Below, in pieces: positions 4,022 through 34,352 of a stretch of 34,352 bases of DNA. Under the pieces are notes generated by a model, which worked only from the letters and a program-made list of their open reading frames with translations, ran no database searches and was not told the origin of the DNA. Each line of letters opens with the position of its first letter. Positions within the stretch are counted from its first letter, which is position 1. The translations under genes and the position numbers were made by a program. Origin of the DNA: Gemmatimonadota bacterium (lineage in GTDB: Bacteria; Gemmatimonadota; Gemmatimonadetes; Longimicrobiales; Gaopeijiaceae); the NCBI GenBank assembly GCA_028873825.1, contig JAPPNM010000129.1, positions 1-34,352 on the forward strand, read 5' to 3'.

Positions 4022-4270
4022 TAGCAGTCCGTGGATAAAGCCGCCCGAGCACCGAGAGCGGCGAGGCGTCGGGCTGGCAAGGCGCGACGAAGGGGGAATG
4101 GCAGCGCTATTCGCCCGAGGAGCAACGCAGAGCGCAGCCTTGGAGTGGCAAAATGTATAGCAGACATTACATAGTGTAATGTATACCTTACAGCGCGGAC
4201 GGGTGAAGCGAAGCGGCCAGCCCGGATGCATCGCCGCTCGAATGCCGGGGGGATTTTGTCCACGGGCTAG
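4022..4270 (+). repeat. Dispersed MITE/REP-like element, copy B (complete)
   Basis: Best complete copy, about 249 bp. Left end TAGCAGTCCGTGGATAAAG, right end TTTTGTCCACGGGCTAG: imperfect terminal inverted repeats. The core palindrome ACATTACATAGTGTAATGT is at 4164-4182. The right end supplies the stop codon of the neighbouring minus-strand gene (complement of CTA at 4267-4269). There is no coding capacity for a transposase. Size, inverted ends and copy number fit a non-autonomous element, or an ERIC/REP-like intergenic repeat. Confidence 0.85.
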
Positions 4271-5674: not shown

Positions 5675-8050
5675 TCAGTTCCCCGCGGCCCGGCACGGGT
5701 TGACCACCCGGTGGCCCCTGGCTACGGCATGCAGCCACTCTTGCGGCACCTTGCCTCGCACATAGTCCGACGGGGTGCTGCCGTCGTCGTCGGGCGCGGC
5801 GGGATCGGCGCCGAGCCGCAGCAGCAGTTGGTACTTCTCTGAACTCCGGGCTGCCTCATGCAGCGGAGTGCGTCCCCCCCGGCCGCGCGCCCGCAAGTCC
5901 GCACCCGCCTGCACCAGCAGTTCCACAACCGCCGCGGACGGTCCGCGCGATGCCGCGCCGTGAAGGGGCGTCGCCCCGTCCTCCGAGCGGGCGTTCACAT
6001 CCGCCCCCCGGTCCAGCAGCACCGCCACCACGTCGGGCGCCGCGTACTTCGCAGCCTCGTGGAGCGGCGTCCTTCCAGCCTCGGCTCGCGCATTCACATC
6101 CGCCCCGGCCCGCAACAGCGCGACAATTACGTCCGGGCCGCTGTTCGCAGCGACGGCGTGGTGAAGCGGCGTCCGTCCCCCACCTGATCGCAGATTCGGG
6201 TCGGCCCCGGCGCCTGTCAGCACGGAGATCAGCGCGGGACCGCAGGCCCGGACCGCCGCCAGGTGCAACGGAGTCCCTTCCCAACCCCCCCCTGCGTTCA
6301 CACGCGCCCCCGCTTCGACCAAGGCGGCGGCCACGGCGGCGTTCGGGTTTGCCGTCGCCTCGTGCAGGGGAGCATAGTCCCACCCGTAGTCGATAAAGTA
6401 CCCCGACGCCCAGGAATTCACCTCCGCCCCCGCCTCCAGCAGGGCCGATATGATTGCGGGATCGGTGTTGTGCCGGGCCGCCCGGTGCAGGGGAGTATAA
6501 CCCCGGTTGTCGCGCGCGTTGACGTCTGCGCCCGCCCGGACCATTGCGGAAATCACGGCGGGGTCGCGGGTGAACGCCGACGCCTCGTGGAGTGGAGTGG
6601 CGCGGTCGCCGTCGCCGGTGACATCCGCGCCCCGGCGAATGCAGCCGGCAACGACATCGGCTCCGGCCCTGCGGAAGAACATTGGAGTATGCCAGCTCCC
6701 GCAACTCGTGGGATCCGGCACGTTGCCGTCTTCATCGGGGAGCGTCGCATCGGCCCCGAGCCGGATCAGCGTGTCAAAGACATCGGGTCTCCCGGCATGC
6801 AAGGCGTCGCGCAACGGGGTTCGGCCACGCTCGTCGCGTGAATCCGCGAGCGCACCGGCGCCGACAAGGAGCGAAACCAGCTCCACGGGGTCTCGTCCAG
6901 CGAGCACAGCCTCATGCAGCGGCGTCCGGCCCGCGCCGGTGGCCGCGTTCGCGTCAGCCCCGGCTTCGAGGAGCGCGGTTGCCACGCCGAACCTTCCGGA
7001 GCTCACGGCCAGATAGAGGGGTGTGGCGCCGTCGTCGTTGCGCATGTTCACGTCGGCCCCCGCCTCCAGGAGCGCGGCCACCATTTCGGACCGTCCCGCC
7101 TCTGCGGCAGGGTGGAGAGGGGTGTTGCCAGCGCGGTCCCGGGCGTTCGCCTCCGCGCCCGCCCCGGCGAGCGTCCCGATGAGCGCACGAGCCGCGCGAT
7201 TCGGCCGCTCGGCACGCACCAGGTGGTGCATCGGGGTCAGGCCGTAGTCGTCGCGGGCGTTCACCTCCGCGCCCCAATCGATGCACTCCTGCAGGGTCTC
7301 CGCTGTGGCCGAGCCGAGGAAGTCACGGCCGAGCGGCTCGCACGTGTCGGAACCGGGTTTCCGCTCCGGCGTTTCCAGTGTCTCCGGGTCGGCCCCCAGT
7401 TCCAGGAGTTCGTCGACGACCCACGCGTTGCGGGCGCGCAACGCCAGCTGCATCGGTGTCACGCCCTCGTCGTTGCGCGCGTTCATGTCGGCGCCCGCAC
7501 GCACGAGAGAAGCGGCGATCGGCCCCGCATGACCGCGAACGGACATGGCCCGCATGTGCAGCGGCGTGTCGCCGCTCCGATTGCGGGCGCGCACGTCCGC
7601 GCCCGCCGCCAGAAGCACATCGACGAGCGCACTGTCCCCCAAAGCCGCTTGATGCAGGGGTGTGTTGCCGGCTGTGTCCCTTGCGTTCACGTCGGCACCG
7701 GCCTTCAGGAGCGGGACGATGGCGGGATTCGGGAGGAGCGGGAGGTCACCATACGATATCGGGGCGAGTGGGCTCACCTTTTGGAGCGGGGTCAAGCCGG
7801 CGTTGTCCCGGGCGTCCGGGTCCGCTCCGGCCTCGAGCAGGACTTGAACCAGAGCGGGACTCCCGCCGGCCTCCACCGACATGTGAAGAGCGGTTCCCCC
7901 GCGGATGTCTCGCGCTGCCACGTCCGCCCCGGCATCGAGCAGCGCTGCCGGGACGCCGGGGTTGGCGCTGGCCGCGCCCGCCGCATGGAGAGCGGACCCA
8001 CCGCCGAGCACCCGGCACGTCGTCCCGAGAAACCGACAACCCCATGGCAA
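5675..8050 (-). CDS. Ankyrin-repeat array, downstream part (in frame with 8057-9328)
   Basis: About 791 residues of nearly continuous ankyrin repeats (recurring GRTPLHEAA and LLxAGADVNARD strings), roughly twenty units. The frame is the same as the upstream ankyrin ORF, separated only by one TAG (8057-8059) and two codons. It has no signal peptide, no Shine-Dalgarno and no ATG before residue 57 (only TTG 8050 and GTG at codon 14), so it reads as a continuation rather than an independent gene. Two degenerate Cys-containing segments interrupt the array (CEPLGRDFLGSA..ECIDWGAEV and CGSWHTPMFFRRAG..GCIRRGADV). Ankyrin arrays bind proteins; in symbionts such secreted proteins can target host factors (family knowledge). 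Either the second half of one ~1,215-residue protein or an untranslated remnant. Confidence 0.8.
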   Translation of the reverse strand: MPWGCRFLGTTCRVLGGGSALHAAGAASANPGVPAALLDAGADVAARDIRGGTALHMSVEAGGSPALVQVLLEAGADPDARDNAGLTPLQKVSPLAPISYGDLPLLPNPAIVPLLKAGADVNARDTAGNTPLHQAALGDSALVDVLLAAGADVRARNRSGDTPLHMRAMSVRGHAGPIAASLVRAGADMNARNDEGVTPMQLALRARNAWVVDELLELGADPETLETPERKPGSDTCEPLGRDFLGSATAETLQECIDWGAEVNARDDYGLTPMHHLVRAERPNRAARALIGTLAGAGAEANARDRAGNTPLHPAAEAGRSEMVAALLEAGADVNMRNDDGATPLYLAVSSGRFGVATALLEAGADANAATGAGRTPLHEAVLAGRDPVELVSLLVGAGALADSRDERGRTPLRDALHAGRPDVFDTLIRLGADATLPDEDGNVPDPTSCGSWHTPMFFRRAGADVVAGCIRRGADVTGDGDRATPLHEASAFTRDPAVISAMVRAGADVNARDNRGYTPLHRAARHNTDPAIISALLEAGAEVNSWASGYFIDYGWDYAPLHEATANPNAAVAAALVEAGARVNAGGGWEGTPLHLAAVRACGPALISVLTGAGADPNLRSGGGRTPLHHAVAANSGPDVIVALLRAGADVNARAEAGRTPLHEAAKYAAPDVVAVLLDRGADVNARSEDGATPLHGAASRGPSAAVVELLVQAGADLRARGRGGRTPLHEAARSSEKYQLLLRLGADPAAPDDDGSTPSDYVRGKVPQEWLHAVARGHRVVNPCRAAGN

Positions 8051-8056
8051 CCGAAA

Positions 8057-9328
8057 CTAGGCGGACTCACCCCCGCGCACCCGCGCCTGCACATCCGCTC
8101 CGGCATCGAGCAGGGCGCGGACGAGAGCGTCGTTGTCGCCGCGAGCCGCCAGAATCAGCGGCGTCCGGCCCCGGTCGTCGTACGCGTTCGGATCCGCCCC
8201 GGACTCGAGAAGTCTGTTTGCGATCCGAAGCGCGCCGGGCGCATCGGGCCCGGACGCGACGACATGCAAGGCCGTGCTGCCGGAACTGTTCCGGGCCCCC
8301 ACGTCCGCGCCCGCTCCGATCAGCAGGTCGAGAACAGCCGGCCGGGAGCGCCAAATCAGGGGTGTTGCTCCCTCGTCGTCCCTCGCGTGGACATTCGCAC
8401 CGGCCTCGAGCAGAAGCGCGACGGCCTCGATGTCACCCCGGCGAACTGCATGGTGCAGCGGGGTGCGGTTCCTGTCGTCGTGGGCGTTGACGTCCGCTCC
8501 CCAATCGAGGAGTATGGCCGCCACGGCCGTCCGACCGTGCGCGGTCGCCCACACCAGCGAGGTGGCATCCCGGTCGTTGCGCACATCGACATCCGCTCCC
8601 GCTTCCAGGAGCAGGGCCACGTTGTCTCCGTTGTCGTACATCGCCGCATGGTGCAGCGGGGTGTTCCCCTCGTCGTCACGGCCAAAGGTAAAGGTGCGAA
8701 GGCGGGCGTGTACGTCGGCGCCCCCCTCGATGCAACGTGCCATCGCCTTGGTGGTGGCCGCGGCGGCGAACGTTGGCGAGTTCCAGTGTTCGCAGTGCGA
8801 GGGATCGGCGATCCTGCCCCGGAGGTCGCGCGCCAGGGGGTCCGCGCCGGAGGCCAGCAATGTGCGGGCCGCGGCGGGGTTGCGGATGGCCGAATGCAAC
8901 GGAGTGCGGTCGCCGGCGTCCCGCGCGTTCACGTTCGCGCCCGCGCCGATCAGGGCGGTGACGATGGGAGGGTCCCGGTGTCCGGCTGCAACGTGAAGCG
9001 GGGTCGCCCCGCCCCAATCCCGGGCGTTCACGTCCGCGCCGCCCTCCAGCAAGGCGATGACGACTCCGAGATCGCCGGTCTCTGCCAGCGCCGAATGCAG
9101 AGGCGTCCGGTCGCCGGCGCTCCGTGCATTGACATCCGCTCCGTACCGGAGGCAGGATCCGACCGCGCCGGCGCCGGCATTGCGGAAAAAGAGGGAGAAT
9201 TCGCCCGACTTCCAGTCCGCGCAGTCCGGAGGGCCGGGCTCGGGGGAAGGGGGAGGCTGGGTGGAGGCGGAGGGCGCAAACGCGAGCAGGAGCGCAACGG
9301 TCCCGGCGAATGGGGCGATTCTGTTCAT
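8057..9328 (-). CDS. Secreted ankyrin-repeat protein, upstream part
   Basis: 423 residues from ATG 9328, chosen because it begins a signal peptide (MNRIAPFAGTVALLLAFAPSAS) followed by a Pro-rich linker; the frame extends upstream without support. The mature part starts with CADWKSGEFSLFFRNA..SCLRYGADVNAR and continues through about ten ankyrin units (GDRTPLHSA, LLEGGADVNARDWGGATPLH, and so on). A second Cys-containing segment, CEHWNSPTFAAAATTK..RCIEGGADVHAR, lies in the middle. The protein stops at TAG inside the array (ADVQARVRGGESA), and ankyrin coding resumes in the same frame. Export to the periplasm or beyond is inferred from the signal peptide. No operon partner other than the downstream half. 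Confidence 0.88.
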   Translation of the reverse strand: MNRIAPFAGTVALLLAFAPSASTQPPPSPEPGPPDCADWKSGEFSLFFRNAGAGAVGSCLRYGADVNARSAGDRTPLHSALAETGDLGVVIALLEGGADVNARDWGGATPLHVAAGHRDPPIVTALIGAGANVNARDAGDRTPLHSAIRNPAAARTLLASGADPLARDLRGRIADPSHCEHWNSPTFAAAATTKAMARCIEGGADVHARLRTFTFGRDDEGNTPLHHAAMYDNGDNVALLLEAGADVDVRNDRDATSLVWATAHGRTAVAAILLDWGADVNAHDDRNRTPLHHAVRRGDIEAVALLLEAGANVHARDDEGATPLIWRSRPAVLDLLIGAGADVGARNSSGSTALHVVASGPDAPGALRIANRLLESGADPNAYDDRGRTPLILAARGDNDALVRALLDAGADVQARVRGGESA

Positions 9329-9416
9329 CGTCGGCTTGTCACGTGAAGACGGCCTGTCCTTGAACTTCCGGACCGAGGACAGGGTGGGGGGCCGAGGAAA
9401 CAATCGTCAACCCGCC

Positions 9417-9620
9417 AGCAGTCCGCGGATAAGGCCGCCCGAGCACCGAGAGCGGCGAGGCGCCGGGCCGGCTAGGCGCGACGACGGGGGAATAGGCAGG
9501 GCTATTCGCCCGAGGAGCAACGCAGAGTGCAGCCTTGGAGTGGCAAAATGTATAGCAGACATTACATAGTGTAATGTATACTTTACAGCGTGGACGGGTG
9601 AAGCGAAGCGGCCGAGCCCG
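9417..9620 (+). repeat. Dispersed MITE/REP-like element, copy C (right end missing or diverged)
   Basis: Left end AGCAGTCCGCGGATAAGG at 9417, core palindrome ACATTACATAGTGTAATGT at 9559-9577. Similarity to copies A and B runs to about 9620 (GGGTGAAGCGAAGCGGCC) and then fades before the right inverted terminus. Confidence 0.85.
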
Positions 9621-14727: not shown

Positions 14728-14835
14728 AGCAGTCCGTGGATGAGTCCGCGCAGGCACCCGCGGCGGCGAGGCGGCGGGCCGGCGGGGCGTCTCGAAGGTC
14801 GAATAGCGGGGTGGTTTGCCCGAAAGGCAACATAC
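14728..14835 (+). repeat. Dispersed element, decayed copy E
   Basis: Left terminus AGCAGTCCGTGGATGAG at 14728, then divergent but alignable sequence (GGCGAGGCGGCGGGCCGGC; later TTTGCCCGAAAGGCAACATA matching the GCCCGAGGAGCAACG part of copies B and C). The palindromic core is absent. It lies between the small four-Cys gene and the hsdM remnant; the bases from 14836 to 14944 show nothing else recognisable. Confidence 0.6.
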
Positions 14836-16916: not shown

Positions 16917-17774
16917 CTACGCCACGATCCCGATGAAGGCCCGTTGGCGACCCGCGTCACCGCGACGGTGCGAGAAGTACCCTCCGTCGCCGCACAGGGT
17001 GCATTCGCGGCTCACCGAAACCCCTTCCTCGCGAACACCCGAGGCGGCCGCCCGCCGGCCGACGACCCGCCGGAGGTCGATGGGGCGGCGTGTCGCTGGA
17101 ACCGGCTCGCCGAGCGCCCGGAAGACTTCGGGTCCCACCTCGTAGCATTCCCCGCAGACGGCGGGCCCGAGGTGGACGGCCATGTCGGCCGGCCTGCTTC
17201 CGAAGGCTTCGCCCAGCGCGGCGACCCCAGACTCGACGACCCCCGCCGCCGTGCCCCGCCACCCCGCGTGGAGCAGCCCGACGGCTCTCCGGACAGGGTC
17301 GGCGACGAAGACGGGGACGCAGTCGGCGACCGCGACGGTCAGGAGCACTCCGGGGACGCGGGTCACATGCCCGTCGCCTTCGCCCGCCACCTTCGGGCCC
17401 GCGGCGGCGTCTTTCACAGTCCGCGTGCGCGAGCCGTGCACCTGGCGGCTGCCAACCGCCGAGCGCCAGGGGCTTCCCGGGGTCAGCGCGAGCATGTCGC
17501 GAAGGGGCGGGACGGCCGGATCGAACCGGGATTCGTCCGCGCCGGCCCCCCCGCCGGAGCCGCGAGCTTCCGGCCGGGTCCCCGCCGGGGCGGATTCGGC
17601 CGCACTCGGAACGCCGTCCGTCCCCGCGGCGCCCCGGGTCGTCCCCGCCCGGAGCCACGGGAAGCGACTGCCCCATCCCGGAACGGGGGTGGCCGGGAAC
17701 GATCGCGAGCCCGCCGCATCGCCCGGGGGCCGATGCGCCGCCGGCGCTCCCGGCCGTAACGCGCTTCCGGACAT
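16917..17774 (-). CDS. pgeF: Peptidoglycan editing factor PgeF / YfiH-type multicopper oxidoreductase-like protein
   Basis: 285 residues. Family landmarks in order: QVHGS (His113), VAVADCVPVFVAD (Cys152), LLHAGWRGT (His169), HLGPAVCGECYEVG, and the C-terminal ECTLC...YFSHRRGDAGRQ. His-Cys-His form the zinc/active site in the family. YfiH/PgeF proteins hydrolyse mis-incorporated amino acids in peptidoglycan precursors and also act on purine nucleosides (family knowledge). The first ~100 residues are Pro/Arg-rich and longer than usual, so the true start may lie downstream. It is divergent from sucA across an 83-bp gap. Confidence 0.9.
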   Translation of the reverse strand: MSGSALRPGAPAAHRPPGDAAGSRSFPATPVPGWGSRFPWLRAGTTRGAAGTDGVPSAAESAPAGTRPEARGSGGGAGADESRFDPAVPPLRDMLALTPGSPWRSAVGSRQVHGSRTRTVKDAAAGPKVAGEGDGHVTRVPGVLLTVAVADCVPVFVADPVRRAVGLLHAGWRGTAAGVVESGVAALGEAFGSRPADMAVHLGPAVCGECYEVGPEVFRALGEPVPATRRPIDLRRVVGRRAAASGVREEGVSVSRECTLCGDGGYFSHRRGDAGRQRAFIGIVA

Positions 17775-17857: not shown

Positions 17858-20746
17858 ATGAGCGGATACTTCGACAGCCAGAACGCGGCCTACGTTCAGG
17901 CGCTCTACGAGGAGTTCACCCGGAATCCGGAGTCCGTGCATCCGGAGTGGCGGGAGATCTTCCGGCGCGGCCGGCGCGAACTGGCGGACGCCGGACTGCT
18001 CATCTCAGACGGCCGGGCGCAACCGAACGGAGGCGGCGTCCTCGCCGGACCCGGCGCGCTCCCCGAGCCCGCGGTTTCCCCGCCCCCAACCCCCCGCGCA
18101 CCCGCCCCGGCCGCGGCGCCCGCCGTCCCCGCCGCCACCCCCAGGCCCGACCCCCGCCTCCTCTCCCTCGTCGCCCGCGCCTCGAACCTCCTGCAGGCCT
18201 TCCGCGAACACGGCCACCAGGCCGCGCGCATCGACCCCCTCGGCAGCACGCCGCCCGGCCATCCCCAGCTCGACCCCGCGTACTTCGGCACCACCATGGA
18301 GGAGCTGGAGGAGATTCCCACTTCGGTGCTCTTTCCCAAGGGCGGCGAGGCCCCCCTCGCATTCACCCTCGACCGGCTCAAGGCCATCTACGGCGGCGAC
18401 CTGGGCTACGAGTTCGAGCACCTCGAGGACCCCGTCAAGGTGGCGTGGCTGTGGGAACAGGTGGAGCGGGGCGCGCACTTCGAGGGCTACGGCGACGAAG
18501 ACCGGGTGCGCACCCTCGACCGGCTCACCCAGGTGGAGGGACTGGAGCAGTTCCTGCACCGAGCCTACCTGGGCCAGAAGCGCTTCTCGATCGAGGGGAT
18601 CGACATGCTGGTCCCCATGCTCGACGAGGCCATCAAGCTGGCCGCGGCGCACGGCGCCGCCGAGGTCGTCATCGGTATGGCGCACCGCGGCCGCCTCAAC
18701 GTGCTGAAGCACATCATGGGGGTGCCGTACGCGGAGATTCTCGCCGAATTCGAGGAGGGCGCCGCGCCGGGAAGCGCGCTCTGGGTCCCCGACCCCGGCA
18801 CGGGGGACGTGAAGTACCACCACGGCGCCGCGGGGGACTACCCGCTCCGCGCGGGCGGCGCGATCCGGATCACGCTCGCCCCCAATCCCAGCCACCTGGA
18901 GTTCGTCAACCCGGTCATCCTGGGCATGGCGCGCACCCTGCAGTACGCGGGCCGCAACAGCGGCCGCGAACGGGACCCGGCGCTCGTCGTGCCCGTCCTC
19001 ATCCACGGCGACGCCGCCTTCGCGGCCGAGGGCGTCGTGGCCGAGACCCTCAACCTGGCCCGGCTGCGCGGCTACGAGGTCGGGGGCACCATCCACATCA
19101 TCGGCAACAACCAGGTCGGCTTCACCACCGGCCCCGGGGACGGCCGCTCCACCCGCTACGCGAGCGACCTCGCCAAGGGGTACGACATTCCGGTCATCCA
19201 CGCCAACGGCGACGCGCCCGAGGAGTGCCTAGCCGCGGTGCGGCTCGCGATGGCCTACCGCAAGCGCTTTCGCGCCGACGCGGTGATCGACCTCATGGGC
19301 TACCGGCGCCACGGCCACAACGAGGCCGACGAGCCCGAGTACACGCAGCCCGTCCTCTACGGCTGGATCAGCGACCATCCCACCGTGCGGATGCAGTGGG
19401 CCGGGGAGCTCGTCGCGCGCGGACTTGTCACCGGGAGGGACGCCGACGACCGGGTCGCCGCGATGGCCGACCGGCTTCGCGCGATCAAGGACGGCCGCAA
19501 ACGGAAGGAAGAGGAGTCCGCCCCGCCGTGGCAGGTGCCCAGCTACACCGCCGTGGACCAGGAGTTCGAGCGGGACACCGGGGTCCCCTTCGAGGAGCTC
19601 GAACGGATCAACCGGACGCTGCTCGCCGTTCCCGAGGGCTTCAGCGTCCACCCCAAGCTGGTCCGCCAGCTCGAGCGGCGCGGCAGGGACTTCGGTCCGG
19701 ACTTCGAGGTGGCCTGGGGACAGGCCGAGGCTCTGGGCATCGGATCGCTCCTGGCCGCGGGCGTGCCGGTTCGCCTCACGGGCCAGGACTCGCAGCGGGG
19801 CACCTTCAGCCACCGGCATGTGGTGCTGAACGACGCGGAGACCGGCGAGCGGCACTGCCCGCTGGCGGAAGTCTCGGACACCCGCTTCGAGATCTACAAC
19901 TCGCCGCTGACCGAGGCGGCCACGATCGGCTTCGAGTACGGCGTGGCGGTCGCGGCCGACCGGGACCTGGTGCTCTGGGAGGCCCAGTTCGGGGACTTCG
20001 TCAACGTGGCCCAGGTCATGATCGACCAGTTCCTGTCGGCGGGGTGGTCGAAGTGGGGACAGCGTTCGCGGCTCACCCTGCTCCTGCCGCACGGGTACGA
20101 GGGCCAGGGACCCGAGCACTCCAGCGCGCGTCTCGAGCGGTTCCTGCAGCTTTGCGGCGAGGACAACATGCGGGTGGTCTACCCCAGCACGCCGGCCCAG
20201 TACTTCCACCTGCTGCGCCTTCAGGCCTTCAGCGAACCGGAGCGGCCGCTGATCGTCATGTCGCCCAAGAGTCTCCTGCGGCACCCCCGGGCGAAGTCCC
20301 CGGTGCGGGAGCTGGCCGACGGGCGCTTCCGGAAGGTGATCGACGATCCCGCGACCCAGGGACAGGAAGACGCGGAGCGGGTGCGCCGGCTGATTCTGTG
20401 CAGCGGGAAGGTCTACTACGACCTGGCCGGCGCGGACGAGCGGGCCGAAGCCGGGGACACGGCGATCGTCCGGGTTGAGACGCTCTACCCGTTCCCGGCC
20501 GGGGGGATCCGGGCACTGCGCGAGCGCTACCCGAACGTCGAGACGGCGATCTGGACCCAGGAGGAACCGCTGAACATGGGGGCGCTCACCTACATCCTGC
20601 CGCGGCTGCGGACGGCGCTGCCGCGCGAGGTCCGCCTGCTGCACGTCTCGCGCCCCGAGCGGGCGAGTCCCGCCGAGGGGAACCCCCGAAATCACGCCAT
20701 CGCGCAGCGCGACATCGTGGCCAGGGCGCTGGCGGCGCGTGCATGA
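17858..20746 (+). CDS. sucA: 2-oxoglutarate dehydrogenase E1 component
   Basis: 962 residues from ATG 17858 (E. coli SucA is 933). The N-terminal segment YFDSQNAAYVQALYEEFTRN is the E2-binding leader typical of SucA, followed by a Pro/Ala linker. Thiamine diphosphate and active-site landmarks: GMAHRGRLNVLKH (near 273), HGDAAFAAEGVVAET (near 384), IIGNNQVGFTTG and YRRHGHNEADEPEYTQP. The C-terminal half has GQDSQRGTFSHRH, LPHGYEGQGPEHSSARLERF and GEDNMRVVYPSTPAQYFHLL. It decarboxylates 2-oxoglutarate in the TCA cycle and passes the succinyl group to E2. The E2 gene (sucB) is not next to it; a threonine ammonia-lyase follows. The stop codon abuts repeat remnants. Confidence 0.97.
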   Translation: MSGYFDSQNAAYVQALYEEFTRNPESVHPEWREIFRRGRRELADAGLLISDGRAQPNGGGVLAGPGALPEPAVSPPPTPRAPAPAAAPAVPAATPRPDPRLLSLVARASNLLQAFREHGHQAARIDPLGSTPPGHPQLDPAYFGTTMEELEEIPTSVLFPKGGEAPLAFTLDRLKAIYGGDLGYEFEHLEDPVKVAWLWEQVERGAHFEGYGDEDRVRTLDRLTQVEGLEQFLHRAYLGQKRFSIEGIDMLVPMLDEAIKLAAAHGAAEVVIGMAHRGRLNVLKHIMGVPYAEILAEFEEGAAPGSALWVPDPGTGDVKYHHGAAGDYPLRAGGAIRITLAPNPSHLEFVNPVILGMARTLQYAGRNSGRERDPALVVPVLIHGDAAFAAEGVVAETLNLARLRGYEVGGTIHIIGNNQVGFTTGPGDGRSTRYASDLAKGYDIPVIHANGDAPEECLAAVRLAMAYRKRFRADAVIDLMGYRRHGHNEADEPEYTQPVLYGWISDHPTVRMQWAGELVARGLVTGRDADDRVAAMADRLRAIKDGRKRKEEESAPPWQVPSYTAVDQEFERDTGVPFEELERINRTLLAVPEGFSVHPKLVRQLERRGRDFGPDFEVAWGQAEALGIGSLLAAGVPVRLTGQDSQRGTFSHRHVVLNDAETGERHCPLAEVSDTRFEIYNSPLTEAATIGFEYGVAVAADRDLVLWEAQFGDFVNVAQVMIDQFLSAGWSKWGQRSRLTLLLPHGYEGQGPEHSSARLERFLQLCGEDNMRVVYPSTPAQYFHLLRLQAFSEPERPLIVMSPKSLLRHPRAKSPVRELADGRFRKVIDDPATQGQEDAERVRRLILCSGKVYYDLAGADERAEAGDTAIVRVETLYPFPAGGIRALRERYPNVETAIWTQEEPLNMGALTYILPRLRTALPREVRLLHVSRPERASPAEGNPRNHAIAQRDIVARALAARA

Positions 20747-20747
20747 G

Positions 20748-20842
20748 GCCGCGCGAGCACCGAGGCGTTTCTTCCAGGATCGGGCGGACGAATCCGCGCG
20801 AGCGGCGAGACGGCGGGCCGGCAAGGCGCGTTGAGGGGGGAC
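20748..20842 (+). repeat. Remnants of the dispersed element between sucA and ilvA-like gene
   Basis: GGCCGCGCGAGCACCGAG directly after the sucA stop and a second block at 20786-20842 (GGACGAATCCGCGCGAGC, then CGGGCCGGCAAGGCGCGTTG) both match the left third of the element (GATAAAGCCGCCCGAGCACC, then GGCTGGCAAGGCGCGACG). Terminus and core are lost. Confidence 0.6.
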
Positions 20843-20870: not shown

Positions 20871-22082
20871 ATGCTGACCGCCGCCCACATCGCCGCCGCC
20901 CGGGACCGGATCGGCCCGCACGTGGTCAGGACGGGGTGCCCGGAATCGTTCGCGCTGCGGGAGTTGGCGGGTTGCCAAGTGCGCCTGAAGGCGGAGTTCA
21001 GGCAGCGGACGGGATCGTTCAAGGACCGGGGTTCGCTCAACAGGCTGATGCAGCTCGGGCCGGCGGAGCGCGAGGCCGGGGTGGTCGCGGCCAGCGCCGG
21101 CAACCACGCCCAGGCGCTGGCGCGCCACGCGGCGCGGCTGGGGATCCCGTGCACGATCGTGATGCCGGACAACGCACCGCTGATCAAGGTCAGCAACACG
21201 CGCGCGAGCGGGGCGAGGGTGATCCAGACCGGGGAGACGATTTCCGACGGGACGGCCCGTGTCGACCGCTTGGTGGCCGAAGAGGGGCTCACCCAGGTGC
21301 ACGCCTTCGACGACCTCGCGGTGATGGCCGGCCAGGGCACGATCGGGCTGGAGATCCTGGAGCAGCTTCCCGACGTGACCGTCGTGGTCGTGCCGGTCGG
21401 CGGCGGCGGGATGATCGCGGGGGTGGCCACGGCGGTGAAGGCGGAGAAGCCCGCCGTGCGGATCATCGGCGTCGAGGCCGAGGCCTCGCCGGGGGCGGTC
21501 AAGTCGCTGGAGGCGGGCGCGCCGGCGCACGTGGAGATGTCGGACACTCTGGCCGACGGGATCGCCGTGAAGCGGATCGGCGACCTGACCTACCCGCACC
21601 TGGAAGCCCTCGCCGACGACGTGGTGCTGGTAAGCGAAGAGGAGATCATCCGGGCGATCTTCTTCCTGCTCGAACGCGAGAAGCTGGTGGTGGAGGGGGC
21701 GGGGGCGGTGGGGGTGGCCGCGCTCCTGGAGGGGAAGATCGGGGTGGCGGCGGGCGACAGCGCGGTCTGCATTCTGTCGGGCGGCAACATCGACATGAAC
21801 ATGGTGTCGCGGATCATCGACCGGGGCCTCTGGGCCGACGGCCGCCTGGCCAGCCTGTCGGTGGTGGTGCGCGACCGTCCCGGCTACCTGAACGAAGTCA
21901 CCGGAGTGGTCGCGATCGCGGGCGCGAACGTGCTTCACATCGAGCATACGCGGGCGTTCGGGGACATCGCGGTGGGCAAGGTCGCGATCGAGATGAAGAT
22001 CGAGACCCGTGGGCGGGAGCACGTGGCGGCGATCGTGGCGCAGTTGCGCGAACTGGGACACCGGGTGGAGGAAGTGGGGTAG
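20871..22082 (+). CDS. ilvA: Threonine ammonia-lyase (PLP-dependent, with C-terminal ACT domain)
   Basis: 403 residues. Start ATG 20871 with GGGAGG 12 nt upstream. The PLP lysine is Lys51 in RTGSFKDRGS; the glycine loop VPVGGGGMIAG (177-180) holds the cofactor phosphate; ASAGNHAQALA and SGGNIDMN are further family motifs. Residues from about 325 form a single ACT domain (LSVVVRDRPGYLNEVTGVVA). Deaminates threonine to 2-oxobutyrate, the first step toward isoleucine, or acts catabolically. The ~400-residue length with one ACT domain fits the TIGR01127-like/short IlvA group, so symbol ilvA versus tdcB is not settled. The TAG stop is the first three bases of a repeat terminus (TAGCAGCCCGTGG). Confidence 0.93.
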   Translation: MLTAAHIAAARDRIGPHVVRTGCPESFALRELAGCQVRLKAEFRQRTGSFKDRGSLNRLMQLGPAEREAGVVAASAGNHAQALARHAARLGIPCTIVMPDNAPLIKVSNTRASGARVIQTGETISDGTARVDRLVAEEGLTQVHAFDDLAVMAGQGTIGLEILEQLPDVTVVVVPVGGGGMIAGVATAVKAEKPAVRIIGVEAEASPGAVKSLEAGAPAHVEMSDTLADGIAVKRIGDLTYPHLEALADDVVLVSEEEIIRAIFFLLEREKLVVEGAGAVGVAALLEGKIGVAAGDSAVCILSGGNIDMNMVSRIIDRGLWADGRLASLSVVVRDRPGYLNEVTGVVAIAGANVLHIEHTRAFGDIAVGKVAIEMKIETRGREHVAAIVAQLRELGHRVEEVG

Positions 22083-22103
22083 CAGCCCGTGGACGAAATC
22101 CCC
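22080..22103 (+). repeat. Solo terminus of the dispersed element at the ilvA stop
   Basis: TAGCAGCCCGTGGAC followed by GAAATCCCC is the reverse complement of the element's right end (GGGGATTTTGTCCACGGGCT in copies A and B). Only the end is present. It contains the stop codon of the threonine ammonia-lyase. An opposing terminus lies at 24474-24492. Confidence 0.7.
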
Positions 22104-24473: not shown

Positions 24474-24492
24474 AGTGTCCACGGGCTGTTAG
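24474..24492 (-). repeat. Solo terminus of the dispersed element after the BCCT gene
   Basis: GTCCACGGGCTGTTAGC matches the right terminus of copies A and B, oriented opposite to the terminus at 22080-22103; the shared inverted core is CAGCCCGTGGAC. It lies 1-2 nt from the stop codon (24494-24496) of the leftward-reading pseudogene. Confidence 0.6.
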
Positions 24493-24493
24493 C

Positions 24494-25259
24494 TCAGCCC
24501 CTTCCGCCAACGGGATACTCGCGCACGGCACGCTCCCCTGCCGGCGCAAGACGGACGACCTCGGAGACATCAAGCGGGTCGTTCTCGGGAAGCGGCGATT
24601 CACCCTTCTCCTGGCCGGTCCCGGCCACGCTCCGCAGCCCGGCCAGCGTCTCCGAGCCGGGTATCGCCGCCCGGTCTCCATCGTAGTAGTCGAACCAGGG
24701 GAGTCCGGCGTCGGCGTATTCGCGGGCCGTCGGCGGGTCGGTGGGCGGTCGCTCTCCGGTGATCGCCAGCCACTGCGCGGAGTTGGCGATCGTCACGAAG
24801 CAGCGGCTGGCGCGCCCCTCGTCCCACGCGTCCGGGCCGTAGTCGTCGTCGTAGATTTCCTGCCGCATCCGGCCACCGGGGGCCAGGCCCATGTCATACT
24901 TCGCGGGGGCCCGGCGGTAGCACACCCCGACGACCTCTTCCGCCGCCCTGAACCGGACCGCGAAGAACTTCTCGTAGACCTCGCGCTTCATGGGGCAGAC
25001 GGACAGCTGCAGGCCGCCGTGCTTCGCGGCTCCGGTCAACTGCTCCTCCGCCGTGTACCCCTCCACGGGTTTCCTGGGGAAGGCGGTCCGCGAAATCGTC
25101 GAGATGGCGGAGCGGAAGGCGACCCAGGCCCGCGGGGAGAGGGTAGGCCCGGTCGTTGTCCGGAATCCGCAGGGTGCGCTGGAACTCGATGCCGCACCGG
25201 GCCCCCGGATGGACTTCGGGGAACCGGAAGGTCATCCGGTCTCTCTCAAGGGTGATCAT
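24494..25259 (-). pseudogene. Decayed gene of a conserved hypothetical family (internal deletion and frame change)
   Basis: Two pieces of what looks like one protein. 25259 down to about 25080 encodes MITLERDRMTFRFPEVHPGA..FQRTLRIPDND..YPLPAGLGRLPLRHLDDFADRL. From about 25072 to 24494, one frame over, comes PVEGYTAEEQLTGAAKHGGLQL..GGRMRQEIYDDDYGPDAWDE..LPWFDYYDGDRAAIPGSE. I recall a family in which RTLRIPDD/YPLPPGLGxFP and GYTVEEQVTG/GRMRQxIY..PYG/GLPWFDLYDE occur in one longer polypeptide with roughly a hundred more residues between them; that middle is missing here. It follows an XRE regulator by 28 nt, as a co-transcribed partner. A GTG at 25066 could still allow a C-terminal fragment. Function of the family unknown. 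Confidence 0.65.
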
Positions 25260-27145: not shown

Positions 27146-27356
27146 GGATACCTCCCTGACGCTGCTGGGGGAGGGTGAGTGGCGAGGGGAAGCCGCCGGA
27201 CCGATCCGGTTGCCGGAGCGCCGCGGCCGAGGTGGCGCGCCATTCGGACCGGTTTGCGCAGCATGGGCCAATGCCGTACAGTATGGTGGCATCAGGTCGC
27301 CTGGGTGGGCCAGGCACGATGCGCCACACGCCACTCCCAACGAGAGGAGAACGCCG

Positions 27357-28478
27357 ATGAACACACTTTCGTCAACACGGTTGCCCATGGCGCGATTCCC
27401 CGCCATGCCCCGCTGGTCGCCGCTGCCGTTGGTGGTCGCCTTGCTTGCCGCGTGCGGCGGCGACGCGCCGCCCATCGCGTGCCAAGGGGAGCTCCATACC
27501 AAGGTGGAGCTGAGCATGGAGCAGACGCAGCTCCTGCGGCCCTGCTTCGAGGACCCCGAGGGCGAGTCGCTGCAAATCACCGCCAAGGCGTCGGATCCCG
27601 AGGTCGTGTCCGCGCTTGTCGTAGAGGACCCGACGATTAATTCTCAGGTCCCGATGTATGTGGTCAGCGTGATGGGGTTGTCTCCCGGAACCTCCACCGT
27701 AACGATCACGGCCGAGGATCCGAGCGGCCAGACCGCCTCGATCGACGTCGCGTTGGAGGTCCTCAGGCGAGTCGTGGTCTGGCGGGCGGACTTCGACGGA
27801 AGCCGCGACGGCTTCGAGTCGGGCTCGTGCGGCGAGTTTACTATAGAAGACGGCAAGGCGGTGCTCGCTTCCGGCCGTGACGGCTCTCTTTGTTGGGCGA
27901 GGAAGTCGGGGTTCACTGCGGACGAATGGGAATTGACGGCGTCGTTGGGCAAGGCTAAGGAAAATGACAATGAGACCGCGCCCGGATTGTTGTCGTATTA
28001 CGGCGGGACGAACGCCATCTATCTGGGCATGGTCTTCGGATATGAATCCGTTAGCTCGAAGTACTTCGGCGCCGGAGACCCCCACAATTTTGTCATGGTC
28101 TACCACAACTATGCCGACTGGTGGACCACCGACGACGATCTTTGGGGGAACTCGGACGCTTGTGACAACGATCCCGGGGAGTTGATCGATGTGGCCTTCG
28201 CCAACCGCGACGGCGATCTTACGGCAACGTGCGGCACTACCCTGGTGTTGAGAGTGAACAGGGCGGATAAGGAGTGGTCGCACGTCACCACGATGGACAA
28301 CTTGGCTCTGACGGTGGTGGGCCCCAATGCGTACCAGTATGTGGAGTTCGATTGGGTCGAGTTGACCGCCCTCCCGCCCCAGGGCGAGCAAAGCGCTCGA
28401 GTGGCTTGGGACGAGGGCCCGCCCGAAGTGCCCGATGACGTCCTCACTCTCAAGCGCAGGGTCGACATCCCGAGGTAG
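27357..28478 (+). CDS. Ig-like/LamG-like lipoprotein, paralogue 1
   Basis: 373 residues from ATG 27357 (GAGGAG 6 nt upstream). A lipoprotein signal ends with VVALLAAC (lipid-modified Cys33). Residues about 45-145 form a bacterial Ig/cadherin-like domain of the type FxDPEGxxLxITAKASDPEVVS...GTSTVTITAEDPSGQTASIDVALEV. The remaining ~230 residues (VVVWRADFDGSRDGFE...YQYVEFDWVELTAL) look like a jelly-roll carbohydrate-binding or LamG-like domain, opening and closing with Trp/Phe-rich strands. Anchored to a membrane, probably surface-exposed. Its paralogue is at 31704. Between them, on the opposite strand, is an LRR-metzincin lipoprotein. Ligand unknown. Confidence 0.85.
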   Translation: MNTLSSTRLPMARFPAMPRWSPLPLVVALLAACGGDAPPIACQGELHTKVELSMEQTQLLRPCFEDPEGESLQITAKASDPEVVSALVVEDPTINSQVPMYVVSVMGLSPGTSTVTITAEDPSGQTASIDVALEVLRRVVVWRADFDGSRDGFESGSCGEFTIEDGKAVLASGRDGSLCWARKSGFTADEWELTASLGKAKENDNETAPGLLSYYGGTNAIYLGMVFGYESVSSKYFGAGDPHNFVMVYHNYADWWTTDDDLWGNSDACDNDPGELIDVAFANRDGDLTATCGTTLVLRVNRADKEWSHVTTMDNLALTVVGPNAYQYVEFDWVELTALPPQGEQSARVAWDEGPPEVPDDVLTLKRRVDIPR

Positions 28479-28578
28479 AGAGTCGAACCTGCGGGGGGGA
28501 TTGTGATCGCTGCAATCCTCCCGACATGGCGGTGCGGAGCGCCGGTTCGATAGCGGCGTGACGCGACCCGGGCCCCGG

Positions 28579-31633: not shown

Positions 31634-31703
31634 GGGGGATCGGGTCGCCTGGGTGGCCAGGCACGATCCGCCGCACGCAACTCCCAACGAGAGGAGAACG
31701 CCG

Positions 31704-32747
31704 ATGAACACACTTTCGTCTACCCGGTTTCCCATGGCGCGGTTCCCCGCCATGCCGCGCTGGTCGCCGCTGCTGCCGGTGGTCGCCTTGCTTGCCGCGT
31801 GCGGCGGCGACCCGCCGCCCGTCGTGTGCCCGTGGGCGCCGGCGATACTCCAAGTGGAGCTGCGCGTGAACGAGACAAAGACCCTGCGGCACTGCTTCGA
31901 CGACCCCGACGGCGAGCGGCTGACAATCACCGCCAAGGCGTCGGACCCCGAGGTCGTGTCCACGCTCGTGTGGAGCTTGGGGGCCTGGGACCGGGACCCG
32001 ACGGTCCAGGTCAAGGGGTTGTCTCCCGGGATTTCCACCGTAACGATCACGGCCGAGGATCCGAGCGGCCAGACCGCCTCCATCGACGTCGCCTTGGAGG
32101 TCTTCGAGCTAGTCGTGGTCTGGCGGGAGGACTTCGACGACCGTGAAGACGGCAAGGCGGTGATCGGCGCTGGCTCTTGGCTGAGGAAGTCGGGGTTCAC
32201 CGCGGATGAATGGGAATTGACGGCGTCTTTGGGCCAGGCTAAGGAAAATGACCATGAGACCTTGCCCGGATTGTTGTCGTATTACGGCGGGACGAACCCC
32301 ATCTATCTGGGCATGGGGTTCGGATATGATTCCGCTAAGAGATTCGGCGCCGGAGACCCCCACAATTTTGTCATGGTCTACTTCAACGATACCGACGGGT
32401 GGACCACCGACGACGATCTTTGGGGGTACTCGGGCGCTTGTAAAAACGATCCCGGGGAGTTGATGGACGTGGCTTTCGCCAACCTCTTCGGCGATCTTAC
32501 GGCAACGTGCGGCACTACCCTGGTGTTGAGAGTGAACAGGGCGGACAAGGGGTGGCCGCACATCACCACGATAGACAACACGTATCTGTCGGCGGTAGGC
32601 ATCCAGTATGTGGTTTTCGATTGGGTCCAGTTGGCCGCCCTCGCGCCCGAGGACGAGCAAAGCGCTCGAGTGGCTTGGGACGAGGGCCCGCCCGAAGTGC
32701 CCGATGATGTTCTCACGTTCAAGCGCGGCGTCGACATCCCGAGGTAG
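31704..32747 (+). CDS. Ig-like/LamG-like lipoprotein, paralogue 2
   Basis: 347 residues from ATG 31704, with the same Shine-Dalgarno context as paralogue 1. Lipobox VVALLAAC, Cys33. The Ig/cadherin-like domain (LTITAKASDPEVVSTLV...ISTVTITAEDPSGQTASIDV) and jelly-roll-like domain (VVVWREDFDDRED...IQYVVFDWVQLAAL) are retained. Relative to paralogue 1 it lacks about 20 residues after EDFDD (the DGFESGSCGEFTIE part), replaced by a shorter KAVIGAGSWLRK link, and has different residues just after the lipobox and in the DPTVQVKG loop. Differences cluster in what would be loops, while the C-terminal VAWDEGPPEVPDDVLTFKRG is nearly unchanged. Function unknown; binding role inferred from domain type. 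Confidence 0.85.
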   Translation: MNTLSSTRFPMARFPAMPRWSPLLPVVALLAACGGDPPPVVCPWAPAILQVELRVNETKTLRHCFDDPDGERLTITAKASDPEVVSTLVWSLGAWDRDPTVQVKGLSPGISTVTITAEDPSGQTASIDVALEVFELVVVWREDFDDREDGKAVIGAGSWLRKSGFTADEWELTASLGQAKENDHETLPGLLSYYGGTNPIYLGMGFGYDSAKRFGAGDPHNFVMVYFNDTDGWTTDDDLWGYSGACKNDPGELMDVAFANLFGDLTATCGTTLVLRVNRADKGWPHITTIDNTYLSAVGIQYVVFDWVQLAALAPEDEQSARVAWDEGPPEVPDDVLTFKRGVDIPR

Positions 32748-32831
32748 AGAGTTGAACCTGCGGGGGGGATTGTGATCGCTACGAACCTCCCGACATGGCG
32801 GTGCGAAGCGCCGGTTCGGTAAACGGCGTGA

Positions 32832-34282: not shown

Positions 34283-34352
34283 TAGCAGTCCGTGGATAAA
34301 GCCGCCCGAGCACCGAGAGCGGCGAGGCGCCGCGCTGGCAAGGCGCGACGAA
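34283..34352 (+). repeat. Dispersed MITE/REP-like element, copy D (truncated by window end)
   Basis: Starts TAGCAGTCCGTGGATAAAG at 34283 and follows copy B closely up to GGCAAGGCGCGACGAA, where the window ends. Copy A at the window start begins in the same element further along, so both window ends fall inside it. Confidence 0.85.

Follow-up and report, generated by a model that had tools for sequence, protein, structure and literature searches.

A MITE of Gemmatimonadota that probably inserts at (C)T|AG with the help of an IS1182/IS5-related transposase and rebuilds TAG stop codons

The 34,352-nt window analysed here spans a complete contig (C73); the draft genome to which it belongs has 183 contigs and 3.31 Mb. 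Both ends of the window fall within copies of a repeat. Four substantial copies had been reported in a first-pass annotation, and these were recovered at 1-213, 4023-4269, 9417-9620 and 34284-34352. The copy at 1-213 lies on the minus strand and is truncated by the contig start, with its right-end (RE) terminus at 213. The nearly complete copy at 4023-4269 (plus strand) has its left end (LE) at 4023, a palindromic AT-rich core at about 4160-4190 and an RE terminus at 4269 that is short of three terminal bases. The plus-strand copy at 9417-9620 lacks the RE terminus, and at 34284-34352 the LE of a further plus-strand copy is truncated by the contig end. The decayed copies and solo ends listed earlier were equally found, as a decayed LE portion at 14728-14831, one or more decayed LE remnants at about 20730-20835 (both plus strand), a solo RE at 22080-22103 (plus strand, the element itself starting at 22081) and a second solo RE (AACAGCCCGTGGAC) at 24474-24490 on the minus strand. 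With up to two mismatches allowed, the end motif AGCAGYCCGTGGAY is matched 8 times in the window where 1.36 matches would be expected, a number reached by 0 of 100 shuffles, and one of the 8 (at 17344) looks like a chance match. The stretch 4022-4270 forms a single long hairpin, a far better fold than that of its shuffles (z of -6.8 as DNA and -8.6 as RNA). An Rfam search of the window gave a tRNA as its sole match.

Four of these ends had been described as lying at or beside gene stop codons. The TAG of a YchF-type ORF (ORF to 5307 or 5397) indeed lies within an RE terminus, at 4267-4269 on the minus strand, in the end that is short of its three usual terminal bases. The stop of the ilvA-like ORF (20871-22082, plus strand) is the TAG at 22080-22082; it had been taken as the first three bases of the element, but the element proper starts at A and the preceding T belongs to the flank, so the gene provides the T and the element the AG only. 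The ORF at 24494-25066 does stop close to an end, although its TGA comes a few bases before that end rather than 1-2 nt from it. The ORF at 17858-20746, named sucA in the first-pass annotation, is associated with a remnant, its TGA (20744-20746) falling inside the decayed left end and not beside it. The window also holds two diverged tandem copies of one stretch (27308-28552 and 31655-32821), 84-91% alike in long blocks, and at 5675-9403 long ORFs of repeats, which we take to be ankyrin-like, with many units about 99 bases apart.

Across its own genome the repeat has 43 DNA matches and 186 exact AGCAGYCCGTGGAY ends (93 per strand; decayed ends are left out by exact matching), against 0 for the reversed control. 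We analysed 183 distinct ends of the 186, 176 of them with at least 400 bases of flank. Complete copies measure about 249 bp and have two different ends, LE (AGCAGTCCGTGGATAAAGCCGCCCGAGCACCGAGAGCGG) and RE (AGCAGCCCGTGGACAAAATCCCCCCGGCATTCG); there is also a 174-bp form without the AT-rich core, together with shorter deletion forms, and many copies are decayed or cut down. This short, multicopy element with inverted ends carries no transposase gene and an IS with the same ends occurs in the genome, in agreement with the MITE label that it was first given. Among same-family genomes, 59 of 121 contain matches (own genome counted), including all 23 of the genus, and 133 ends were counted in the complete genome G033. 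Copies also abut one another in tandem arrays, with a unit of 249 or 176 bp, in G033 (207149-207893) and in G025 (contig C19, 17530-17894). An AT-rich palindrome that resembles the MITE core lies shortly after a stop codon in G028 (contig C22), where the MITE ends are absent.

Of the 144 typed ends, 75 are found at contig ends, with at most 205 bases of element visible there; the MITE helps to explain the high fragmentation of the draft genome. A second repeated element (ATGACGGAAGTATCGC or AGGACGGAAGTATCGC) was observed at eight loci, in the own genome (C17, C59, C121 and C138), in G030 (two loci), in G015 and in G027; in the own and G030 copies it follows GGCTGGC at one fixed site within LE. 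This element may be a site-specific IS and a parasite of the MITE. The longer element starting with ATGACGGAAGTATCGC inside LE on C17 and C59 had first been read as the autonomous form, but seems to be another element that has entered LE at a single site.

No transposase was seen in the window, as had been stated, and the matching IS sits on other contigs. It was found through two ends with unusual interiors: an IS of autonomous type, about 1.5 kb long and with the same ends as the MITE, is present on contigs C57 and C81. The C57 copy has 1531 bp between its termini, and the C81 copy is an internally deleted form, identical to it at 665 of 671 positions of one end. The IS interior encodes DUF772 (PF05598) and DDE_Tnp_1 (PF01609), both above cut-off. 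No intact copy was seen in the own genome, the C57 transposase being frameshifted into two frames and the C81 copy deleted. Many MITE copies are nevertheless 95-98% alike, and an intact IS copy may therefore be missing from the draft assembly. In two relatives the transposase is a single unbroken frame, of 476 aa (L260) and 468 aa (L253); frameshifts affect 6 of the 8 IS copies compared, the C57 copy included. The best NCBIfam family for the full-length transposases is IS1182 (NF033551), with 192.5 and 175.7 bits where the cut-off is 270. Of 117 family genomes, 10 (own counted) have a transposase match at E <= 1e-20; none was found in the complete genome G033 with its 133 ends, nor in at least 10 other listed genomes of the genus. 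From the shared termini and target we infer that the IS transposase moves the MITE in trans.

All eight IS copies for which both termini were located have the flanks CT...AG, and in 8 of 8 the last IS base and the flank read TAG. The two unbroken copies use this TAG to end their transposase gene (...TGC T|AG), with the AG coming from the flank. Every copy thus has the T|AG codon at its terminus, but only 4 read a long C-terminal portion of the transposase in the frame of that codon: the unbroken two, and L251 and L256, in which this frame holds the protein from residue 72 or 300 onwards. A frameshift in the remaining four places the DDE part in another frame, and in L252 the last ~38 residues are back in the terminal frame. 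As read from the two unbroken copies, the two target bases that are rebuilt for the host would also close the transposase gene. More distant IS relatives in Rhodothermales and Bacteroidetes records have similar ends and T|A flanks; their terminal frame stays open over just 0-83 codons, which places the end of their transposase further in. Named records hold 18 transposase-bearing loci, from Gemmatimonadota/Gemmatimonadetes, Longimicrobiales and Candidatus Palauibacter, and also from Gammaproteobacteria, Rhodothermales or Rhodothermaceae, and Bacteroidetes. In one record titled Gammaproteobacteria (L310) the IS flanks are the same as those of L251 in the family genome G011, and the record is probably a mislabelled bin.

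The target of the MITE is (C)T|AG, with no duplication or at most a 2-bp TA that overlaps the ends. The base before the terminus is T in 49 of 57 RE and 56 of 93 LE, with C at -2 in 35 RE and 66 LE, and the junctions mostly read T|AGCAG on both sides. Next to close downstream genes (n = 24) the residue after LE is AG in 14 cases, GA in 3, AA in 1 and others in 6; AG accounts for 14 of the 18 stop-like residues, against a share of 0.30 (p = 3e-5). As TGA is the commonest stop (TGA 161, TAG 71 and TAA 7; n = 239), these counts mean that T|AG is favoured as a target all the same, and that a TGA stop can probably be converted to TAG by insertion.

Target-site duplications and empty sites had been proposed as checks in the first-pass annotation; three clean empty sites were found, with no bases lost, and no duplication beyond a possible TA. 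One filled/empty pair lies in a gene whose own-genome orthologue has the RF-1 domain of a class-I release factor: the filled site in G028 reads ...GGTGGCGT|AGCGGCCC...GGACTGCT|AGCGGCATG and the empty one in G033 ...GGTGGCGT|AGCCGGATG, the empty site being GGCGT|AGC, in the stop codon. A second empty site, CCCT|CGGGG (L072/L005), is inside a coding sequence, with zero bases lost or duplicated, and a third, CCT|GGCC, is compatible with a TG duplication as well as with none. Since the L072/L005 insertion took place at T|CG in a coding sequence, TAG is not an absolute requirement at the target, and stops are not spared in every case. Of 32 copies, 21 are flanked by the same base left and right, against 15.3 by shuffle (p = 0.009), whereas L005 speaks against a 2-bp TA (TN) duplication; at CTAG a 2-bp duplication looks the same as none.

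The distance of each terminus from the nearest stop was then tabulated, as had been advised, with gene ends called by a home-made codon-usage caller rather than a standard one, on which these distances depend. In the own genome the stop of the flanking gene is exactly T|AG across the terminus at 27 of 55 RE, 9 of 89 LE and 5 of 32 untyped ends. Where an ORF of the RE flank reaches the junction or runs on, it is in the stop frame in 27 of 29 cases (p = 2e-11 against 1/3). Replicate genomes have a stop exactly at the junction for 16 of 72 ends (G025), 4 of 30 (G033, where some of the regions had been chosen for being orthologous to stop sites) and 2 of 6 (G032), and at four more G033 ends the stop finishes one base earlier.

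We also compared the 41 stop-junction flanks with 40 stretches from four relatives, in which the junction was placed by ungapped extension from the alignment end (0 to 51 bases); an alignable orthologue was available for 12 sites. At 9 of the 12 (23 of 37 rows) a stop codon (TAG, TGA or TAA) starts at the same T in one or more relatives. An element or apparent remnant is present in 3 of the 23 positive rows (G028 at L080, G033 at L134-1607 and G025 at L136-6849); it is the sole positive row of L134-1607, and 8 of the 12 sites rest on element-free rows. The three sites without an orthologous stop at the junction are L072 (the insertion within a coding sequence), L136-1666 and L150. The suspected coincidence with gene stops therefore holds both genome-wide and in orthologues. 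The earlier alternatives, that the element targets gene 3' ends or brings its own stop, were each partly right, the target (C)T|AG including TAG stops and the element's AG restoring the stop. Junctions and orthologues together demonstrate, at the level of sequence, that when the target is a TAG stop the element's AG rebuilds it and the upstream gene keeps its length.

Our preferred explanation, to which we give a probability of about 0.83, is that the MITE is the non-autonomous element of an IS related to the IS1182/IS5 group, inserting at (C)T|AG and rebuilding TAG stops with its own AG. The DDE transposase of the ~1.5-kb IS would recognise the common terminal inverted repeat AGCAGNCCGTGGAYAAA and insert the element at (C)T|AG without target duplication, or with at most an overlapping 2-bp TA. 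Wherever a stop codon begins with this T, the AG of the element would restore TAG and leave the length of the upstream gene unchanged. Inwards, the transposase frame of an intact IS would run to the last IS base and be closed by T plus the AG of the flank. TAG stops, and occasionally TGA stops turned into TAG, would then be harmless landing sites at which copies accumulate, presumably through target choice together with purifying selection.

Other explanations fit parts of these data. The palindromic fold, the tandem arrays, the solo ends and the genus-wide distribution are what a REPIN mobilised by a RAYT (Y1 HUH) transposase could also display, and the repeat had been called REP-like. Y1_Tnp (PF01797), the REP transposase family, matches in none of the 23 genus genomes, while the control matches in 5 of 14, and a DDE IS with the same ends as the MITE exists; we accordingly rejected the RAYT/REPIN origin, which is extremely improbable unless a divergent Y1 enzyme escaped the search. 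Stem-loop replacement, in which the element takes the place of a palindrome downstream of genes, would follow IS1272 (IS1182 family), whose transposase belongs to the same group as that of the partner IS and which likewise lacks long duplications; according to a passage of PMC5678879, two of three new IS1272 targets were downstream of genes and the third in a gene 3'-end region. A few single copies have palindromic flanks by eye, but the flanks of 49 complete copies hold no excess of palindromy (110 matches at offsets 3-10 against 105, sd 8.7) and the three clean empty sites lose zero bases, which makes this route highly unlikely, and it too was set aside. That copies are retained as a host 3'-UTR, terminator or RNA-stability module would suit the strong hairpin and the location between stop and next start with its orientation bias. 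A simple scan of two MITE copies found no terminator- or promoter-like site, contrary to the earlier idea that the element brings a transcript end, and many copies are decayed or shortened, so that we consider a host module improbable.

A closer question is whether there is an active preference for stop codons or gene 3' ends on top of the (C)T|AG target, for example by transcription- or translation-coupled exposure of sites. Stops coincide with 36 of the 102 typed ends that have T at -1 (p = 2e-4 against 0.20 and p = 2e-3 against 0.22), the baseline being the share of CTAG sites outside called coding sequence that are stops, 4 of 20 in the own genome, 15 of 87 in a larger own-genome set and 16 of 72 in G025, with uncalled open frames treated as non-coding. 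RE alone reaches 27 of 47 (p = 2e-8), with an odds ratio of 8.6 over LE (p = 3e-7), whereas LE alone (9 of 55) is at expectation. Purifying selection would give the same sign as active preference, the orientation bias is not clear in G025 (LE 5 of 24, RE 0 of 3, untyped 11 of 45) and the counts depend on the home-made gene caller; an active preference is rather doubtful on this evidence. Tolerance explains much of the stop association, but leaves over the bias towards RE and the surplus beyond the sites on offer. We entertain only tentatively the broader idea of a transposon lineage adapted to stop codons, whose ends would serve as the AG of TAG in both directions at no cost to the host, with its own transposase stop supplied and stops preferred beyond their target share in one orientation.

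Insertion at (C)T|AG with rebuilding of the stop offers a simple and testable route to transposon harmlessness, in which target sequence and terminal bases match and the stop codon is rebuilt. It predicts that an insertion can turn TGA into TAG and so shift the termination of a gene, even of a release-factor gene; with TAG in place of TGA, RF1-type termination would replace RF2-type.

A MITE of an IS1182-like IS is of a known kind, while the fit between target, termini and stop codons is unusual and, as far as the literature was searched, undescribed; no stop-codon-rebuilding MITE was seen among the papers listed in searches of open-access literature. REPINs are palindromes outside genes that occur in tandem arrays and as solo ends; in these features the present element is like REP/REPIN systems with RAYT, but here no Y1 transposase was found in the genus and the partner is a DDE IS. 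TA-target MITEs of IS630/Tc1-mariner type (Correia/NEMIS, RUP) share with the present element a short palindromic form, TA at the junction and a high copy number, and differ in that the partner IS here has a DUF772/DDE_Tnp_1 transposase and the junction is often fixed in the stop-codon frame. The nearest likeness by transposase score is to the IS1182 family (NCBIfam NF033551, including IS1272), with DUF772 plus DDE, terminal inverted repeats and no long target duplication. In contrast to that family, the transposase scores below the cut-off, the target is (C)T|AG rather than a replaced stem-loop, the MITE partner is abundant and the stop codon of the intact transposase is supplied by the target. 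Stopless transposases have been described, a passage of PMC5678879 reporting the tnp of TnSha1 to be without its own stop codon; the IS found here resembles such elements in this respect, but here the target completes the stop as T|AG, and outwards those bases also serve host genes.
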